From a virus: a stretch of 57,515 nt of DNA. Both the position numbers and the translations under genes were made by a program. Location of the stretch: the IMG/VR virus record IMGVR_UViG_3300042549_001260, positions 1 through 57,515 of that record, one strand, 5' to 3'. Each line of letters starts with the position of its first letter. Position 1 is the first letter of the stretch. Shown in pieces: positions 486-30,203 of this stretch. The notes under the pieces are model-generated. The model was not told the DNA's origin, made no database searches, and saw only the letters and a list, made by a program, of their open reading frames with translations.

Positions 486-3400
486 TGGAAGAAGAAGATT
501 TTCTGACGAGCTACAAGAGAAAGCGTGAAGCCACACTTGAGACACTTCCGCAAACATCCCTACCTCCCGAAGAGACTGAAGAGGAAGACTTTCTAGAGGC
601 ATACAAGCAGAAGAGGCCCACTCAGCCAGAGCCTACTTTCGCACCTGTTGCAGTGACAGAAGAACCTGTTCCTTCAGACTTTATTAATCTAGAGAACAAG
701 GTTTATTCTGAGAACAGCCTGCTTGAGGAGGAGTTCTACCGTCCTATTGAAGGCTATATGGTTGACAGGTTTGGGGATCATATCAGAGACCTTGATCGTG
801 AAGATGTCGTCAATATGTACGCCAACAACATGCGTGGCTTCTCGGGTGGTAACTCTGTCCGTACAGTCAATGAGATTTCTTACCTCAATGAAATCAACGA
901 CGACGAAGAGAAGATGGCACGGGCTGGTCAAGCATACGAGATTTTTAATGGTATGCAGACGGTGTTTGGGGAAACCTCTTGGAGCGAAAAGGCTGAGATC
1001 GTACTGGACTACACTCGTTCCGCAGTGCTTGATCCTGTAAACGTCTTGTCGTTGGGTGCAGGTAAGGTTGCTACGGGTGGGGGCTTTAAACTTGGTTCCC
1101 AGATGGCTCTTATCTCTGCCAAGCAAGCATACAAAAAAGCTATCAACAAAGGCCTATCTATTTCGGATGCGACAGAGCTAGGTGCTAAGACCCTTCGGGT
1201 TGCAACTAAGATTGCCAAGAGAAAAGCTACCCGAGAGGCTACTAAACGTCAAGCTATCGAAGCTGCTGCTACCACTACCCTACAAAGAATGACGACGAGG
1301 ACTGCACTCAAGGAAGCTGCTGTTGTTGGCACCATTGAGTCTGCTATTGCCGCTGGTACAGACTACCTATATCAAGATGCCATGCTTCGCACTGCCGTTC
1401 AAGAGGAGTATAATGTCTATCAAACAGGTCTTTCTGCTGTAGTAGGTCTTGTGGCTGGTGGTCTCTCAGGTGCTGCGAGTAACGTAGGCACTGGGGCTTC
1501 AAGGACTGTTGCTCCAGAAAAGCTCAAAACATCTACTTTTGGGTCTAAGTCTCTTAGTAAGGTAGTCAACCAGACGCCATCAAGTGCTGCTACTCCTAGC
1601 TCTGCCCCCTATGTCCCCGGTGCTTCAAACTGGCTTAAGGACGTTGCTAAGGGTAAAGAGCTTGCAGATCAAGACTCTAAGTTTTTCTATACGATGCTCC
1701 TTGGGGATAGTGATAAGGGTCTGAAAGGTCTTGCCCACACCCTCCTCGAAGATGGTTACGTCTGGACACCCAGAACTGTAGACGACAAGGTGTCGAATTG
1801 GGTTGGGGATATTATCAAATACGCTGACCCTCAGGACGCTAAGAAGTTCATTGATGACTTCACTAAGGCCACTGGCATTGAAATGGCAGAAGGGAAGCAA
1901 CTCACTCTTGAGGCTTTTGCTGACACTTTCAAGAGGAAGATGAGTGACAGTGGCTATGTGATGAGTGCTGCGAGTCAGGTTGCAAGGCTCTTGGGCAGAG
2001 AAGCTAAGGACATTACTCTGGATGACTACGCCTCTGTAATCCTTGGGGGTGTCGGTTCTAAGACCTCAAAGGCCTCTGCAAAGGTGAAGACTCTGGGGGC
2101 GAAACTTGGTGATATTGTCGTAAGGGACATTCCAGATTTCCAGAACAACCTTATTAGACTTATGGTATCTAACCTCTCTACAACAGCACTGAACGTCACA
2201 GGCTACGCTGCAGCAAGCTCCCTCAACTCTGCGGCAGATGTTGCACGTGCTGTTTTGCTTGGTGGAAAAGCTGGCTTGGAGCTACTTACGAAACCTGCCA
2301 ATGCAAGAGAGACTGCCAGCAATGCTCTAGGGATTCTCGCTAACCAGAAGCAGAAGGCTCTCTTTACCCTTGACCCTAACACCACATACGACACCTTCTT
2401 AAGGTACTCTGAGTTGCGTCCTAAGTCAATGTCACAGTTGACACAAGTGCTTCCCGGTGGCGTAGAGTCTCTCGAAAAGCTTGGTAAAGGGTTTGACCCA
2501 GACAAACCTCTGCTGACCCTTGCCTCTAACCAAGCAGTTGACTTTATTGCGAGACTTAACTTTGTGTCTGCTCAGGATGGCTACACTAAGTCTATTGAGT
2601 TCTTGACACAAATGGATAAACTTCTTCGTCGCCCAGAGAAAGAGGGTGGCTTTGGTATGTCTTGGAACCAGTTCTTCTCTGCACCTGACCAGCACAAGAA
2701 GATGTTGTCTGAACGGTTTGTAACACTCGAAGCCAAGGCTGTGAACGACACGCTGGAGACAGTGTTCTCTAAGTCCTATAAGGGTGAAGACTTCATCGGA
2801 GAGGTTGCAGGGGTTATTGAGGATGCCCGTAACATTCCCGGTATCGGTATGCTTGTACCTTTTGGTCGCTTCTTCAATAACACTATTGGGGCTGCTTACG
2901 ATGCCACTGGAATACTACCATTTATCTCTAAAGTCTTTGGGGGAGAGCAAGACAAATTCTACTCTGAGATTTTTGCCAAGGGTGTAGTTTCATTGTCGCT
3001 ACTCAGCATACTTGCAAAGCGTGAGGAAGGCTTCATTGACTTGGGTCTTGGCTGGAGCGAAGAGATTGATGCAGAGACAGGGGAGATTATTGATGAGCGT
3101 TATGAATTCCCCTACGGTGCTTACAAGGCTGCAGCAAGAATTGTAGCGATGCAAAACAAGGGTCAAGAAGTCCCTAAAGAATTGGTTGCTCAGATTGGGG
3201 ACCAGTTCTTGGGACAGCTTACAAGACAGCTAGGAGAGGCTGGGGAAGGTCTTGGCAACATCTTTACCATCTTGTTCTCGGATGAAGGTCCAGATTTCTC
3301 GGAGGTTCTTTCCGGGATTTCCGGGACGATTGGCTCTCAGGTTGTTTCTGCAGCTACCCGTCCTTTGGAACCCCTCAACGTGCTTGCTGGTTTGAGCAGA

Positions 3401-4027
3401 GACGAAGAGTACTACACCCCTGATAGGAACCAAGGGGAGAAGGCAGTAAACAACTCTATGCGTTACCTAGATCAGATTATTGCCCTGTTCCGTGGTAATG
3501 AGAATGTATCTCCACCTGCGTTCAGTGCAGCAGAGGGCAAGCCTCGTACTACCCCTTCGCGTCTGATCTCTACGACTAGGGCGACAAAGCTAACTAACGT
3601 TGAAAGGGTGATGAACTCTATCGGTAAAGATACTTGGACTGCCAGTATGTCATCTCTCTCTGATGCTGCAGACAGTAGGTACAATGATATCTTCAACACT
3701 ATGGTTGAGAGGGGGGCACTGGACCTGTGGAACTCTAAGTCTTTCCGAGAAGGTGATTTAGAGTTGAAAAGAAACAAGGTTGCTACTCTCCTTAATAGTG
3801 CTAAGGAGTCTACTTTGTCATTCATGGAGAGTGGTGCTGCAAGGGGTGGGGATACGCAGTCTGCTCAGAGGATCAGGATTTCAAGGGGTGGTAAGTCTAA
3901 AGAGGCTATCCGTAGGACTATGGAGAAAATTGGCCTCGACAAAGAGTTTGAGGAGTTGTCCCCACAAGAGTTGGATGTCTTAGAGGCTACCCTTAAGTAC
4001 ACAGATGAATTCCTTAAGAACAAATAA
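485..4027 (+). CDS. large internal virion / ejection-type protein (1180 aa)
   Basis: Last gene of the late operon. The N-terminus carries two copies of an acidic motif (EEEDFLTSYKRKR and EEEDFLEAYKQKR, near residues 2-15 and 32-45). A long helical body with Ala-rich, partly hydrophobic stretches follows near residues 180-330 and 560-620. Size, position after the transglycosylase and late expression suggest an internal core or DNA-ejection protein comparable in role to T7 gp15/gp16. I see no catalytic motif. Start chosen at the ATG that overlaps the previous stop by one base. A strong hairpin terminator follows directly. Function is inferred from context. Confidence 0.8.
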   Translation: MEEEDFLTSYKRKREATLETLPQTSLPPEETEEEDFLEAYKQKRPTQPEPTFAPVAVTEEPVPSDFINLENKVYSENSLLEEEFYRPIEGYMVDRFGDHIRDLDREDVVNMYANNMRGFSGGNSVRTVNEISYLNEINDDEEKMARAGQAYEIFNGMQTVFGETSWSEKAEIVLDYTRSAVLDPVNVLSLGAGKVATGGGFKLGSQMALISAKQAYKKAINKGLSISDATELGAKTLRVATKIAKRKATREATKRQAIEAAATTTLQRMTTRTALKEAAVVGTIESAIAAGTDYLYQDAMLRTAVQEEYNVYQTGLSAVVGLVAGGLSGAASNVGTGASRTVAPEKLKTSTFGSKSLSKVVNQTPSSAATPSSAPYVPGASNWLKDVAKGKELADQDSKFFYTMLLGDSDKGLKGLAHTLLEDGYVWTPRTVDDKVSNWVGDIIKYADPQDAKKFIDDFTKATGIEMAEGKQLTLEAFADTFKRKMSDSGYVMSAASQVARLLGREAKDITLDDYASVILGGVGSKTSKASAKVKTLGAKLGDIVVRDIPDFQNNLIRLMVSNLSTTALNVTGYAAASSLNSAADVARAVLLGGKAGLELLTKPANARETASNALGILANQKQKALFTLDPNTTYDTFLRYSELRPKSMSQLTQVLPGGVESLEKLGKGFDPDKPLLTLASNQAVDFIARLNFVSAQDGYTKSIEFLTQMDKLLRRPEKEGGFGMSWNQFFSAPDQHKKMLSERFVTLEAKAVNDTLETVFSKSYKGEDFIGEVAGVIEDARNIPGIGMLVPFGRFFNNTIGAAYDATGILPFISKVFGGEQDKFYSEIFAKGVVSLSLLSILAKREEGFIDLGLGWSEEIDAETGEIIDERYEFPYGAYKAAARIVAMQNKGQEVPKELVAQIGDQFLGQLTRQLGEAGEGLGNIFTILFSDEGPDFSEVLSGISGTIGSQVVSAATRPLEPLNVLAGLSRDEEYYTPDRNQGEKAVNNSMRYLDQIIALFRGNENVSPPAFSAAEGKPRTTPSRLISTTRATKLTNVERVMNSIGKDTWTASMSSLSDAADSRYNDIFNTMVERGALDLWNSKSFREGDLELKRNKVATLLNSAKESTLSFMESGAARGGDTQSAQRIRISRGGKSKEAIRRTMEKIGLDKEFEELSPQELDVLEATLKYTDEFLKNK

Positions 4028-9274: not shown

Positions 9275-9547
9275 TTAAGGCTCCTTGTTATTGAGAACGA
9301 TTGGGTTCAGGCTGGTACGGAAGTGGTTTACCAAGACATACGCCTCGTCGAGATTATCAAACCAGAATTCTGCATCAAACACATCTTTACCACGGGAAAC
9401 TTTCAGAACCAGCATCGTCGATTCAGGTGGGAAACCACAGTCTGGGAGGTCTTCTGCAGAAAATGGCCCCTCAATGATACCCCAGAGTAGTGTCTGTTCA
9501 GGTTCTTCCTCTTTTCTTGAGAACTTCTTTCGTAACCAGTTTAGCAT
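9275..9547 (-). CDS. hypothetical protein (90 aa)
   Basis: A basic N-terminus (MLNWLRKKFSRK) is followed by an acidic, mixed alpha/beta body containing VFDAEFWFDNLDEAYVLV. I chose the ATG rather than the GTG three codons upstream because its spacing from AAAGG is better. It overlaps the endonuclease I gene by about 50 bp. No family recognised. Confidence 0.65.
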   Translation of the reverse strand: MLNWLRKKFSRKEEEPEQTLLWGIIEGPFSAEDLPDCGFPPESTMLVLKVSRGKDVFDAEFWFDNLDEAYVLVNHFRTSLNPIVLNNKEP

Positions 9548-9947
9548 TCTTGTCACCTTTCTCTAAAATCCAAGATTCTGGGATGAGTTTGTCTGCAAAG
9601 ATAAAGCTGTGCTTGTTACACCAGTCAGCATAAGAGGTAGATGACCCCTTGTTAATCTTGGCGGAACTGTTGGAGAACACAAACCTAATATCTAACTCTG
9701 GCCTCTGGGATTGCAAGAGTAGATGCTTCTTTCTGTCTGCAAGTACGAACCTCCCCTTGGTTTCAACGATGATACCATTGGGAAGCTTGAAATCAGGTGA
9801 GTACTTGTGGGAGCTTTCAGGGATGACATAGGGGATTTTGTAGGTTTCATACTCTACTTTGATCCCCAGTGCCTCCAGTTGTTGTGCAACTCTGCCCTCC
9901 AAGCCTGACCTGTAACCCCTAGCCTCTGGGGATACCTTCTTTCTCAC
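9498..9947 (-). CDS. T7 endonuclease I-like Holliday-junction resolvase
   Basis: 149 aa, the size of T7 gp3. The catalytic set is conserved with the same spacing: Glu17 (RSGLEGR), Asp52 (YSPDFKLP), Glu62 and Lys64 (IVETKGRF), matching T7 Glu20/Asp55/Glu65/Lys67. It resolves branched DNA during replication and packaging and can degrade host DNA. It overlaps the Cas4-like nuclease gene by four bases, forming a nuclease pair. Confidence 0.95.
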   Translation of the reverse strand: MRKKVSPEARGYRSGLEGRVAQQLEALGIKVEYETYKIPYVIPESSHKYSPDFKLPNGIIVETKGRFVLADRKKHLLLQSQRPELDIRFVFSNSSAKINKGSSTSYADWCNKHSFIFADKLIPESWILEKGDKNAKLVTKEVLKKRGRT

Positions 9948-18685: not shown

Positions 18686-18874
18686 TCAGAAGTTTGGGTA
18701 GAAGTTGCTGCCTGTGTGGCTGTGATACTCAGATACCGTCTTGTATTCTTGCTTCAGATGTTCGCAGGGTTTCCCATCCCACTCAGCCTGTTCCACCTGT
18801 TGCCCCAGTTTCTTTAGTAGGGTGTGGATGCTGACGAGGGATGAGTCCTTGTTGCGGTCATACTTGTTATGCTC
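18686..18874 (-). CDS. hypothetical protein (62 aa)
   Basis: Begins MEHNKYDRNKDSSLVSIHTL, helical in the middle (KKLGQQVEQAEWDG) and ending HTGSNFYPNF. I chose the ATG that overlaps the integrase stop by eight bases; a more upstream in-frame start would lie deep inside the integrase gene. No family recognised. Confidence 0.6.
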   Translation of the reverse strand, partial: EHNKYDRNKDSSLVSIHTLLKKLGQQVEQAEWDGKPCEHLKQEYKTVSEYHSHTGSNFYPNF

Positions 18875-19952
18875 CATCCTTGTAACCCTTTCTGACGTTC
18901 TGTGCTGTCTTAGCACCCTCGTATGTGTGCCTCATGTACGGGTTGAGGCTGGCGATGTTCTTGTGTCCTGTTACCTGCATGATGCCTGTGCTGTCAACTC
19001 CTGCTGCTACAAACTCTGTGATGGCAGTCTTTCTCAGGTGTCCAATCTTCAACTCTTCTGGCAAGCCACATGCCTGCTTTATCTGGCGAAGTATAGGCCC
19101 AAACGATTCAGGTTTCAAGGGGACATAGGCATTATCGCTGGCCCTGTGGTGTGGCACCACGTACTTCTGGAAGCCCCAATCATCCTTCTGTTCCTTGAGC
19201 ATGGTCAGCAGGGGTTCCTCAATGGGCATCTCCACCTCTGCACCCCTCTTGGATTGTGTAACCTTCATCCTTGCATTTTCGAGATCAAGATTGTGCCAAT
19301 TGAGGTGGCATATGTCTGTAGGTCTTTGCGCCCACTCATAACACATCATCACCAGCAGACCTACGTTTCTCCACTCGAACTTGGTGAAGGCAGTATCAAG
19401 AAATACTTCAACCTGATCCCTCGTCCAGATCGGTGTCTTGGGTTCGTGCCTCAGCTTCTTCACCTTGGACATAGGGTTGTCGTTGATAAGATCGAGAGAT
19501 CGGGCGAAGTTGAGTACGATGGAGAGTATCCTTGCCCTCTCATTGGCCCTTGCAACTGAGTGTGCTTGAACCCAACCCTCGTAGGCTTCCTTGCATATCT
19601 TCGCAGTCAATTTGTTAATTGGGATTAGGCCAAGGTCTGAACGAGAAACACTCTTTAAGTCTGCCTCGTACTTGATCTGAGACCTGTTAGCGAGAGAGGC
19701 AAACTGCTTGGACGACAGGTAGTAGTTGATGACATGGATGATCTTGGAGCTTGGTCCTACGTTCCCTTCCTTGATCTCTCCCCTTCGGTAAGCATCAACC
19801 TTTTCTATCAAACGGGGGACTTCGTAGCGTGCAGCCCTACCGTCCTTGAAGGTCTGAGACTTAACAACACCAGCCTTAGAAACCTCTGTCGGGGGGACGA
19901 ACCTGTGAACGACAGTCCCATCTGTTAGCTTAACCTTCTTGGTATATTTCAT
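18867..19952 (-). CDS. int: tyrosine-family site-specific integrase
   Basis: 361 aa. A core-binding helical domain (about 60-165) is followed by the catalytic domain with Arg210 (WAQRPTDICHL), Lys235 (TQSKRG), His305/Arg307 (GHLRKTAI), His330 (TGHKN) and Tyr339 (LNPYMRH). It should recombine a phage attP with a bacterial site. I chose the ATG with GAGG five bases upstream; an in-frame codon 13 codons earlier is less likely. The leader carries the palindrome TACCTTAAGGTA. No excisionase or CI-type repressor is recognisable, so lysogeny is possible but not shown. Confidence 0.92.
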   Translation of the reverse strand: MKYTKKVKLTDGTVVHRFVPPTEVSKAGVVKSQTFKDGRAARYEVPRLIEKVDAYRRGEIKEGNVGPSSKIIHVINYYLSSKQFASLANRSQIKYEADLKSVSRSDLGLIPINKLTAKICKEAYEGWVQAHSVARANERARILSIVLNFARSLDLINDNPMSKVKKLRHEPKTPIWTRDQVEVFLDTAFTKFEWRNVGLLVMMCYEWAQRPTDICHLNWHNLDLENARMKVTQSKRGAEVEMPIEEPLLTMLKEQKDDWGFQKYVVPHHRASDNAYVPLKPESFGPILRQIKQACGLPEELKIGHLRKTAITEFVAAGVDSTGIMQVTGHKNIASLNPYMRHTYEGAKTAQNVRKGYKDGA

Positions 19953-19981
19953 GTCGTCCTCTAGCCCAAAGAAAATAGTTG

Positions 19982-20084
19982 AAGGTAGCACTTGCCATGA
20001 AGAAAGACCTGTGCTACCCTCTATCTCTTTATGTATACCTTAAGGTACTTTTACTTCTTAAAGAAGTAATAATACTTAAAGGTA
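19982..20084. promoter_or_regulatory. integrase leader with TACCTT/AAGGTA sites and a 12-bp palindrome
   Basis: An AT-rich gap between the integrase and the upstream 71-aa gene. The palindrome TACCTTAAGGTA is at 20036-20047, with further AAGGTA hexamers at 19982-19987 and 20079-20084 and an AAGAAGTAATAATACTT-type dyad between them. The same palindrome and hexamer recur in the divergent control region near 29.6-29.85 kb. Candidate operator for int, or part of an attachment site. Confidence 0.5.
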
Positions 20085-20291
20085 TTCTTTATGGTTCTCT
20101 TCAAGGATGTACGTAGAGAGAACTTTATCTAGGTCCAGAATCTTCCCTGTAGCATCTTGAACTGAGTCATGGATGATGATACGATTCCCTTTCTGTCCCA
20201 AAGACCTGCCGTAAGCCACTGCATCAGCCAACCCCTCTTGGAGAGAACTTGCAATGACCCTTCCGTTGTCGCTCACCCTCACGTGGTACAT
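20076..20291 (-). CDS. hypothetical protein (71 aa)
   Basis: Begins MYHVRVSDNGRVIASSLQEG, a beta-hairpin-like start, then a helix and RIIIHDSVQDATG. Its 3' end runs into the AT-rich integrase leader. No family recognised. Confidence 0.65.
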   Translation of the reverse strand: MYHVRVSDNGRVIASSLQEGLADAVAYGRSLGQKGNRIIIHDSVQDATGKILDLDKVLSTYILEENHKEYL

Positions 20292-23262: not shown

Positions 23263-23356
23263 ATGCCGTATAAAGATAGGCAAGACCTATACAAGAATCA
23301 AGTAAAAAGGTGGATCAAGATCAAAGAGAAAGCGATAATCTACAAGGGTGGCTGTA
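23263..23356 (+). pseudogene. possible remnant of an HNH-type endonuclease N-terminus
   Basis: On the plus strand, against the direction of this arm, a frame begins MPYKDRQDLYKNQVKRWIK and continues KEKAIIYKGGCSK. A start of M-P-Y-K-D-x-x-x-x followed by K-x-x-x-Y-x-G-G-x-C is typical of small phage HNH endonucleases. It then runs into a 41-bp repeat shared with 28.57 kb, and the rest of the frame is merely antisense to another gene. A truncated endonuclease is my best reading, with low certainty. Confidence 0.3.
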
Positions 23357-23595
23357 GTAAGGAAAGCGAAGTGATGGCGACATTGCCTAGCATCTTTGTT
23401 ATGCCCCACCAGAGCCTCCACATCCTCCTTGTGGAAGGTGATGTAATAGTGGTGGTCCTTCCCGATCCCAAGCAGAACCTCATACTCGTGCATGGTGCGG
23501 CTGGTTGGTGCTTCTACGATCCCGTTGCGCCGGATCAACTCTCGCAGCAAGTCCTCGTCGGTCAGCAGGCCATACGGCACTCGGTTTTTGGTCAT
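23287..23595 (-). CDS. accessory protein with a chimeric 3' end (102 aa)
   Basis: The N-terminus TKNRVPYGLLTDEDLLREL closely matches that of the 154-aa protein at 24595-25059, also at DNA level (35 identical bases). Residues after about 70 are encoded by the 41-bp repeat and the HNH-like remnant read backwards, so the natural C-terminus seems replaced. Coupled upstream by an ATGA overlap. Function unknown. Confidence 0.5.
   Translation of the reverse strand: MTKNRVPYGLLTDEDLLRELIRRNGIVEAPTSRTMHEYEVLLGIGKDHHYYITFHKEDVEALVGHNKDARQCRHHFAFLTTATLVDYRFLFDLDPPFYLILV
23356..23396. repeat. 41-bp perfect inverted repeat, left arm
   Basis: These 41 bases occur as an exact reverse complement at 28565-28605, about 5.2 kb away. 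The repeat marks a sequence junction inside the 3' end of the 102-aa gene. Recombination between the two arms would invert the accessory block between them. Confidence 0.9.
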
Positions 23596-27093: not shown

Positions 27094-27684
27094 TCAGATG
27101 TTGTGTATACGCTTCCAGACCACCCATGTGACAGCCTGCAACTCATACACCCTGATGCCCACACGCTTAGCAGCACGATAGTATGCCGCCTGCATGTCTT
27201 TGTAGACAGCCTTACCCATGGTGGTTTCTACATCTGTCAGGGTCACACGCTTGCCCCTAGCGATGTTGTAAGCGTGGCCATCAATGGTGCAATTGTCATG
27301 GCCCATGATGTTATTAAAGAATGACACAATCTTTTGACCATTCAAGATTTCAAGAACACCCGCCTCACCCTCAGGGATTTGTTCAAGGATAGACCATGCC
27401 TTGTCACGCATCTTTGTATAGGTGCAGGGCTTGCACACATCGACAGGATCGCCCCTCAGAAAGATTGCAATCATGTTGCTCGCATCCTTGATATTTCTTT
27501 CCCACCTATTATTAGGGGAGAGAGCGGCGACCACACCAACCACAATATGCAGTGGCACATCATGCAAGTTAGCAATGGCCTGTGCATCTGTCTTGGCCTT
27601 AGCATACCACACACCGCCCTGAGCCTGTTCCTGTGGTGTCGCCATACGATACACCCTGAGGATGTTTCTCACTTCAGCAGACAT
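27094..27684 (-). CDS. DUF7178-like helical protein (196 aa)
   Basis: Conserved-looking helical protein with PLHIVVGVVAALSPNNRWE, KAWSILE, GQKIVSFFNNIMG and CTIDGHAYNIARG. The arrangement, with an aspartate in T-I-D-G-H, recalls helix-hairpin-helix DNA glycosylases; I recall this as a phage DUF7178-type family. A DNA-repair or nuclease role is possible. Start chosen at the ATG that overlaps the upstream stop. Confidence 0.65.
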   Translation of the reverse strand: MSAEVRNILRVYRMATPQEQAQGGVWYAKAKTDAQAIANLHDVPLHIVVGVVAALSPNNRWERNIKDASNMIAIFLRGDPVDVCKPCTYTKMRDKAWSILEQIPEGEAGVLEILNGQKIVSFFNNIMGHDNCTIDGHAYNIARGKRVTLTDVETTMGKAVYKDMQAAYYRAAKRVGIRVYELQAVTWVVWKRIHNI

Positions 27685-28045
27685 AATAGCCCCCATCATG
27701 GTAGGTCCAAGCATCGTGCATCATTGCTTCTTTACTGTCAACCTTACGCATTGCAGATAGGGGCACTCGTTCACCACTACCCAAGAATTCCAACACACAA
27801 GGCTGACGCACATCACCGGGAACCCGCAAGATACTTTCCTGCCCCGTCACATAATCTTGCACATGCTGGAAGTCCTTGGCAAGCACCATATAACTGCGTT
27901 CCATCACCCCATTATAAGAACCCATACAGAGAGAAACAGGTGACATATTGCCCAAGGCCCTCTGAGTATCAACATGACGCAGGAACTTGGCATTCACGTG
28001 CGGGTCACTGTCACTGTCTATTGCAAAGATGATACGTTCAAGCAT
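27674..28045 (-). CDS. first gene of the leftward operon, hypothetical (123 aa)
   Basis: Starts MLERIIFAIDSDSDPHVN; later SLCMGSYNGVMERSYMVLA, QPCVLEFLGSGERVPLSA and DAWTYHDGGYYVC. GAGGGAGA lies upstream of this ATG. A start 14 codons earlier also has a purine-rich site and cannot be excluded. As the promoter-proximal gene it may be an early host-takeover protein. No family recognised. Confidence 0.65.
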   Translation of the reverse strand: MLERIIFAIDSDSDPHVNAKFLRHVDTQRALGNMSPVSLCMGSYNGVMERSYMVLAKDFQHVQDYVTGQESILRVPGDVRQPCVLEFLGSGERVPLSAMRKVDSKEAMMHDAWTYHDGGYYVC

Positions 28046-28191
28046 ACCAATTCTCCCTCTATCTGTTATCGCGTTGGCTTGATCCATGAAAAGATACCCT
28101 TCGTCTGTCTGACATAAGATACCCTTGCAAGGATCAGGTAGAGAGTGCGCTTGTTAGAGATTTACTGTATCCCGTCGCACCCTCCTTCACC

Positions 28192-28564: not shown

Positions 28565-28605
28565 AAGATGCTAGGCAATGTCGCCATCACTTCGCTTTCC
28601 TTACT
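28565..28605. repeat. 41-bp perfect inverted repeat, right arm
   Basis: Exact reverse complement of 23356-23396. It overlaps the left edge of the second 45-bp element, so two repeat families are joined here. Confidence 0.9.
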
Positions 28606-28867: not shown

Positions 28868-28980
28868 GCACATCACGCGCAGGCACAGGCGAGCACATCA
28901 CGCGCAGGCACAGGCGAGCACATCACGCGCAGGCACAGGCGAGCACATCACGCGCAGGCACAGGCGAGCACATCACGCGC
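28868..28980. repeat. 25-bp tandem repeat (four full copies plus 13 bp)
   Basis: Four identical 25-bp units beginning GCACATCACGCGCAGG, followed by a partial fifth copy. The units are GC-rich in an AT-rich setting and invariant, which suggests recent expansion or function. Such iterons can be protein-binding sites at replication origins; that role is an inference. Confidence 0.95.
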
Positions 28981-29581
28981 GCGTATACGTGGGGGAATTG
29001 TTTTGAGCTTAAAAGATTTGAATATGTGGTGCATCCTTCTGTCTATCTAGTGATAGGTCAGCAATACTGACTGATTTCTTCCCGTCCTAGTCGAATTAAG
29101 AAAGTTACATTCTATAAGAATCTGAATGTTATCAGCATGTTAGCATATACTAGGCCAAGTCTTTTTAATAATATAAGTGACCTAGTAGGATTGCAGGCAT
29201 AGAGGGGCGGGCATGGGCCATGGCGGGGGTGCCTGATAGCGTATACCCACAATGCCAGCGGGGAGATTTTTGTAGTTCTGTTAACCAGAAAAAGGCCCAG
29301 TGGTTAACACTATGTATTTCTTTACCAGTTGGTCAAAAATGGGAGATAGTTGTAGAGGCTCTAGAAAGGCCCTCACAGAGCGATCTCTTGTCTTGGCTAT
29401 GGTGACCTAGAAAAGGTGGAGGTGCATATCTGGCGGCTTTCTTTGGGGCTGTTTTGCTTATCTTTGAGTGTTACCACAGACGGCGGGGGATTACGTAGGG
29501 TTGGAGCTTGGGTCGAACTCCTTGACCGGACAATTTGCTATAGGAAGAGTAAATATTTATAGAAAAAGGTGAGGAGACCTC

Positions 29582-29609
29582 TTGACAAACGACAGAAAAG
29601 CGGTATATT
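29582..29609 (+). promoter_or_regulatory. rightward sigma70-like promoter
   Basis: TTGACA (29582-29587), a 16-bp spacer and TATATT (29604-29609). It points into the lysis and late genes that start at 29961. The -10 box abuts the inner inverted repeat, so a protein bound there would block or modulate this promoter. Confidence 0.7.
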
Positions 29610-29863
29610 ACATTAAGAGATACATAATGTATACCTTCAAGAAGCTTGATGTATCTCATAATGAAGCCTGATGAGATAGCTTCAAGAGTACCTTAGAGTA
29701 TACTTAAGTACTTATTACCTTTAAGTAATTATATAATAATAAGGAATTCATAAAGGATACCTTATGAAGCTTAAGGTAGGAACATTATGTATCTCTTAAT
29801 GTATATACGTAGGTAGGACAAACAAGATTTCAAGTACCTTAAGGTAATTTATTTTCTGTCGTT
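29588..29863. repeat. nested inverted repeats with TACCTT/AAGGTA hexamers
   Basis: Outer arms of 12 bp (AACGACAGAAAA at 29588-29599 and its complement at 29852-29863) enclose inner arms of 20 bp (29611-29630 and 29782-29801), both perfect. Within the region TACCTT occurs at 29632, 29689, 29716, 29758 and 29835, and AAGGTA at 29773 and 29841. The pair at 29835-29846 forms the palindrome TACCTTAAGGTA. The architecture suggests a multi-site protein-binding region: operator, origin or attachment site. Confidence 0.85.
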
Positions 29864-29887
29864 CATCTGTCGTTCACCTAACGTTCA
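29855..29887. repeat. 11-bp direct repeat, three copies
   Basis: TCTGTCGTTCA twice and CCTAACGTTCA once, head to tail, just downstream of the palindrome and about 75 bp before the first rightward gene. The first copy overlaps the outer inverted-repeat arm. Probable additional protein-binding sites. Confidence 0.8.
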
Positions 29888-29960
29888 TCTAACCCCAACT
29901 TTCTCCCTGAAAAACCAAGATAAGGCTTGACTCCAAGAAGCCTAAGGATATAACTAGCAA

Positions 29961-30203
29961 ATGAAATACTTCGCAGACGATGATGTACTCACTAACTTCT
30001 ACAATGCTCTTGCAGACAAGGATGAGGGCAGGCTAAGACGTGTACACATTCCCCGATCCGATGTGTTCTATGTTCGTGAAGCTATCTTCCAAAGGTCTGG
30101 CGAAAGGTACTCCTTAGACAGGGTGGAGAGGGCAATGTATCTTGAAGGGCACCTCAAAAAGAAGGATGTCTTTGAACCAGAGAGAAAGAGAGATTGGGAA
30201 TGA
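29961..30203 (+). CDS. first gene of the rightward operon, hypothetical (80 aa)
   Basis: Charged helical protein: MKYFADDDVLTNFYNALAD ... RRVHIPRSDVFYVREAIF ... RYSLDRVERAMYLEGHLKK. Its stop overlaps the endolysin ATG (ATGA). As the first rightward gene, its role may be regulatory, but no family is recognised. Confidence 0.75.
   Translation: MKYFADDDVLTNFYNALADKDEGRLRRVHIPRSDVFYVREAIFQRSGERYSLDRVERAMYLEGHLKKKDVFEPERKRDWE

Follow-up and report, generated by a model that had tools for sequence, protein, structure and literature searches.

The DNA that follows the late promoter of an HMO-2011-type marine phage is an array of near-palindromic 10-12-mers, and we consider it probable, going by sequence comparison, that this array is the tandem operator of a putative phage regulator of the late and integrase promoters. 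The array is conserved among relatives, occurs in the window at the late promoter (P1) and upstream of the integrase gene only, and is gained and lost unit by unit; that a protein binds it, and that the effect at P1 is repression, we infer. The window, by which we mean the whole stretch of DNA analysed, is the IMG/VR virus record IMGVR_UViG_3300042549_001260, of 57,515 bases.

The window is a marine phage whose packaging and virion genes are of the HMO-2011 type. HMO-2011 and the roseophages CRP-2, CRP-3 and CRP-9 match its head, portal and terminase proteins; its primase-helicase has a match in CRP-9 (65%) and none in HMO-2011. From position 29961 the rightward genes run in the order 80-aa gene, endolysin, a weakly spanin-like gene, large terminase, portal and major head protein. 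The leftward genes begin with a SAM-lyase-like gene and continue with rIIA/rIIB-like genes, tyrosine integrase, thymidylate synthase, primase-helicase, DNA polymerase and ribonucleotide reductase. The first of these (27674-28087) matches the SAM lyase family; S-adenosylmethionine lyase has an early anti-restriction function in T3. Noncoding DNA to the left of P1 contains a GC-rich 25-bp tandem repeat in 4.5 perfect copies (28868-28980), and a perfect 41-bp inverted repeat (23356-23396 and 28565-28605) brackets a 5.2-kb segment that could be invertible or recently duplicated. The promoters around the start of the rightward operon, and its first gene, are as follows.

29582..29609, + strand: P1, a sigma-70-type promoter, TTGACA-16-TATATT, heading the rightward lysis, packaging and virion operon
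29802..29833, - strand: P3, a possible promoter facing P1, TTGAAA-20-TATATA and weak in the window, TTGAAA-16-TATATA in several other lineages
29927..29954, + strand: P2, a promoter, TTGACT-16-TATAAC, directly 5' of the start codon of the first gene
29961..30203, + strand: first gene of the operon, 80 aa, of no known family, encoding a candidate array-binding, autoregulatory protein

The consensus promoter that the original prediction had placed directly upstream of the region enclosed by the repeats is present, matching 11 of 12 consensus positions, and since it heads the lysis, packaging and virion genes it is best called a late promoter. Six bases separate the end of the P2 -10 box from the ATG (29927-29961), an arrangement shared by close relatives, and an mRNA of the first gene made from P2 is predicted to be leaderless or nearly so. 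The repeats and array units in and beyond P1 are listed here.

29588..29599: left arm of the outer inverted repeat, 12 bp and perfect, AACGACAGAAAA, inside the P1 spacer and lineage-specific
29609..29848: array of near-palindromic 10-12-mers, the proposed tandem operator
29609..29630: left arm of the inner inverted repeat, 22 bp and perfect, TACATTAAGAGATACATAATGT, covering the last base of the -10 box and the expected P1 start site
29620-29632: palindrome ATACATAATGTAT within the region of the left inner arm
29621-29631: array unit TACATAATGTA
29689-29700: array unit TACCTTAGAGTA
29701-29710: array unit TACTTAAGTA
29716-29727: array unit TACCTTTAAGTA
29782..29803: right arm of the inner inverted repeat, the reverse complement of TACATTAAGAGATACATAATGT
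29835-29846: array unit TACCTTAAGGTA
29852..29863: right arm of the outer inverted repeat, TTTTCTGTCGTT, of which the TGTCGTT part alone is conserved in relatives
29855..29890, + strand: 11-bp repeat CTGTCGTTCA in three tandem copies after a T-rich run, where relatives usually have one TGTCGT(T)

Perfect nested inverted repeats of 12 and 20 bp had been described here, the inner one abutting the -10 box, together with seven TACCTT/AAGGTA hexamers. Both repeats are real and perfect, and the outer is present at its 12 bp (29588-29599 and 29852-29863), but the inner is 22 bp long rather than 20, and its left arm, which does lie at the -10 box, includes the last base of the box. All seven hexamers were located in 29588-29863 (starts at 29632, 29689, 29716, 29758, 29773, 29835 and 29841), a number reached in none of 2000 shuffles of this 276-bp segment. 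Dinucleotide-preserving shuffling of the segment, repeated 1000 times, gave inverted repeats of at most 12 bp, a length reached in eight of the shuffles, against the 22 bp observed. Among perfect inverted repeats whose arms are separated by less than 5 kb, the window has none longer than this 22-bp pair. The nesting itself was not borne out as a meaningful geometry because the outer repeat is lineage-specific: its left arm is P1 spacer, which differs in other lineages, and on the right TGTCGTT is retained. For the same reason, its left arm lying in a freely changing spacer, we rejected the outer repeat as a second operator. An intrinsic terminator at the T-rich run before TGTCGTT was also considered and set aside, as inspection by eye gave no consistent adjoining hairpin.

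With the 80-aa gene as query we recovered 80 IMG/VR loci, which after removal of duplicates and DNA-poor loci left 58 upstream regions. These have a common layout, in which a P1-like promoter (TTGACN-16/18-TANNNW, 150-480 nt before the first gene) is followed by an AT-rich stretch of near-palindromes and then by the same 80-aa first gene; isolates carrying that gene likewise have a promoter similar to P1 at the corresponding place. In the window the array starts right at the P1 -10 box, in the relatives there or within a few bases of it, and most of the 58 regions also have TGTCGT(T) after a T-rich run and a second promoter like P2, which ends a few bases before the start codon or slightly further up. 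The 10-12-mers share the core ACTTAAGT, and the words in which it is realized vary by lineage (TACCTTAAGGTA and GATACATAATG in the window, TACTTAAGTA and ACTTTAAGTA/ACTTAGAGTA among others, and CACTTAAGTG in HMO-2011). ACTTAA/TTAAGT is found in all 18 independent array clusters, with unit spacings that peak at 10, 11 and 12; a scan for strict TAC..GTA palindromes proved too coarse and did not detect the arrays. As to the conservation in related phages by which the repeats were to be judged, the inner repeat and the hexamers are kept in the form of the array, but the outer 12-bp repeat is not.

When self-similarity was compared with that of shuffles over 21 clusters (18 loci together with HMO-2011, CRP-603 and CRP-9), the mean z was 5.6 for direct and 5.5 for inverted matches, and signals of equal strength are what is expected of an array of palindromic units. 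In L006, a near-identical relative of the window, the inverted signal is the stronger (z of 11.4 vs 6.7 for direct) because of the 22-bp pair. Comparison of close relatives yields 33 distinct array indels of at least 4 nt, of which six are 10 nt and six 12 nt long and none is 9, 11 or 13 nt; those of at least 9 nt peak at 10 and 12, with a remainder that includes 20, 22 and 48. One relative (L038) has an additional 48 bp of a 12-bp unit in one arm only. The arrays therefore gain and lose whole 10- or 12-bp units.

A second array lies beside the integrase gene.

18867..19991, - strand: tyrosine integrase gene, which the putative regulator may control as well
20013..20095: second array, adjoining the integrase gene on its upstream side, with TACCTTAAGGTA (20036-20047), CTTCTTAAAGAAG (20054-20066) and flanking units

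On the - strand of this array TATACATAAAGAGATA resembles the P1 start region and the right inner arm. We scanned the whole window with a 6-mer word model trained only on the arrays of relatives, and clear peaks were obtained at just two places in the 57.5 kb: the P1 array, with a score of 181, and positions 20013-20092 upstream of the integrase gene, with 128. The next score, 34, overlaps P1, and elsewhere the score is 0.3. Eight of nine integrase-bearing relatives also have the integrase-side array, their integrases ranging from 97% down to about 50% identity, and in two of these the array comes close after TTGACA in a layout like that of P1. By eye, L097 has a tRNA-like sequence between the integrase-side array and the integrase gene, which is possibly an attP. 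The presence of the same array at P1 and at the integrase gene links it to the regulation of two genes, and this is our main reason for preferring an operator that acts as DNA.

Among the options offered by the original prediction, an operator for an unrecognised switch is thus the one favoured by conserved arrays at P1 and upstream of the integrase gene and nowhere else in the window. What is found is what an operator array would present: repeated palindromic units at helical spacing, an overlap with the promoter start, and the same sites at a second promoter. We propose that a phage-encoded regulator, probably a dimer, would bind the array as DNA, its copies lying side by side along the helix; bound from the -10 box onward, it would lie over the start site and repress P1. 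The shorter array upstream of the integrase gene would place that gene under the same protein, and through the regulator bound there integration and late-gene control would be coupled. In this view the 22-bp repeat is no separate device but the strongest matching pair of units, at the two ends of the array. P2 lies about 80 bp past the last unit and could transcribe the first gene on its own.

An alternative explanation is that the P1 transcript folds into a giant hairpin, serving as a leader that regulates or stabilises, or as a small RNA, much as the lambda late promoter makes a short RNA. Folding of the + strand from 29610 onward gives -78.9 kcal/mol (z of -5.9), the hairpin would start near the expected P1 start site, and in the closest relatives the changes in pairs are mostly of the A-U/G-U type. 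A selected RNA hairpin should, however, show more G-U than A-C mismatches in its arms, and across 21 lineages, with the two penalised equally, we counted 8 G-U vs 28 A-C; there being no excess of G-U, a hairpin of the sense-strand RNA is not supported family-wide. In seven close relatives, which are not independent of one another, not one of the 69 predicted pairs carried a double compensatory change. The two strands differ little in how well they fold, an arm may grow without its partner (as in L038), the inverted match extends into the untranscribed -10 region, and the same words occur upstream of the integrase gene. Rfam searches at gathering and loose thresholds gave no family here, weak chance hits aside, and the sole real match was a tRNA elsewhere. 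A leader of this kind is therefore unlikely as the general explanation, although RNA structure has a possible role within the window's own close lineage.

The remaining alternatives concern the DNA itself. P1 could be opposed by the possible leftward promoter P3, where the array ends on the right, with operators picking the winner in the manner of P2 and 186. The - strand TTGAAA and TATATA-like box are indeed conserved in that half of the family to which the window belongs, in many cases spaced by 16 bp, and are so placed that P1 and P3 would each have one arm of the 22-bp repeat as their start region; yet the spacing to TATATA is 20 bp in the window, lineages with short arrays do not have P3, and the nearest leftward gene is met only at 28087, all of which makes this arrangement very improbable. 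Scarcely less improbable is a replication origin, one of the options originally raised, in which transcription from P1 would open or prime an AT-rich stretch as in the promoter-plus-AT-rich origins of T7 and T4. Here a strong promoter is followed by DNA of about 30% GC, and near 29 kb the cumulative GC skew reaches its lowest point. The skew turn is confounded by gene direction, however, and beyond it and AT-richness the origin has no positive support; it also leaves the conserved palindromic words and the second array at the integrase gene unexplained, and a separate, more widely conserved G-rich block lies about 380 bp upstream of P1. This block (29206-29290; GGGGCGGGCATGGGCCATGGCGGGGGTG...CGTATA...GTTAACC) is found in most HMO-2011-type relatives, including CRP-1, -2, -9, -13, -345 and -603, with a similar one in CRP-207; it is possibly a replication or packaging site, for which it is the likelier place than the array, and a quadruplex is also possible. 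The other option, an attP with integrase arm sites, could appeal to the presence of a tyrosine integrase and of an array adjoining its gene, but we give it almost no credence. Integration of CRP-3 has been shown experimentally and its junctions mapped with primers (PMC6918029). Those primers, at 2829 and 3642, put the attP within 2829-3642, at least 1.3 kb past the integrase gene and away from the late promoter, and the 6-mer scan gives CRP-3 no array peak. CRP-9, conversely, has the array; no integrase is annotated in it, and the window's integrase has no homologue there. An attP should be found wherever the integrase works and be dispensable otherwise; with an attP elsewhere and no array in CRP-3, and an array without an annotated integrase in CRP-9, the array is not an attP.

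If the array is an operator, its regulator may be encoded by the gene next to it. We tested 71 ORFs of the window for homologues that are present in the array-bearing CRP-9, HMO-2011 and CRP-2 but missing from the array-less CRP-3, and only two qualified: the 80-aa gene and one for a phage endonuclease I (9498-9947). The comparison covers few isolates and a single array-less complete genome (CRP-3). CRP-1, -13, -207, -345 and -603 also have the 80-aa gene, and their best array score falls in the P1 leader, some of these scores being weak (the arrays of CRP-13, CRP-345 and CRP-603 are weak by inverted-repeat score); HTVC115P has a single AT-rich peak scoring 77. In CRP-212 and CRP-738 we saw no array by eye at the start of the late operon and did not find the 80-aa gene either, and the more distant Manatee Spring phage has the gene with no clear array. 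With its presence tracking that of the array, the 80-aa product appears to be the best candidate for the regulator.

The 80-aa protein is highly conserved, with the core HIPRSDVFYVR. Searches of Pfam, PHROGs, NCBIfam and PDB sequences gave no match for it, nor does the Arc model PF03869 match anything in the window. Its structure is predicted with middling confidence (pLDDT 68), and structure searches returned nothing significant; the model has a strand-like LRRVHIP followed by helices at 32-46 and 52-61, compatible with a ribbon-helix-helix fold, although to assign the protein to that class is a guess. A Foldseek search and a second look listed no ribbon-helix-helix chain, which at pLDDT 68 is uninformative. 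We advance only tentatively, and regard as doubtful, the broader idea that the HIPRSDVFYVR protein belongs to a new family of phage regulators, of which it would be the first to be recognised, and that by coating the arrays at its own and the integrase promoters it decides between lysis and lysogeny throughout the HMO-2011-type marine phages; if this were true, one protein would make that decision in an abundant group of ocean phages.

HMO-2011-type phages have been described as dominant and broadly distributed in the ocean (PMC9038755). Some of them integrate, and an operator array common to the late and integrase promoters would offer a handle on a possible decision between lysis and lysogeny. 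A literature search found no paper describing these repeats, and the word 'promoter' has no occurrences in the two genome papers searched for it. Together, the array and the 80-aa candidate narrow the question to one candidate regulator gene, so that it can be tested with one small protein and two DNA fragments.

Several known systems offer partial parallels. Like lambda pR', P1 is a promoter with a noncoding leader ahead of lysis genes and then terminase and virion genes; unlike it, the leader is an array of palindromes with no family-wide RNA signature, and no Q-like gene was identified. As in the P2/186 switch, there would be operators between promoters, control of both integrase and lytic genes, and possibly a facing promoter, but the window has no recognisable CI, Cox or Apl gene, its rightward promoter drives lysis and virion genes, and the facing promoter is weak. 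The met boxes of MetJ, the omega heptads and the sites of Arc of P22 are tandem operators of small dimeric repressors, and the array resembles them in its short, repeated, often palindromic units at promoter starts and in the service of more than one promoter by one regulator; such regulators often autoregulate a gene adjoining the operator, as the 80-aa protein may do. The array differs from these in having units of 10-12 bp and many more of them, with a regulator that is as yet a candidate. Many sites for one phage regulator, here a putative one, are also a feature of the 'stoperators' of mycobacteriophage L5, but those sites are asymmetric and scattered over the genome, whereas the sites in the window are palindromic and packed at two promoters.
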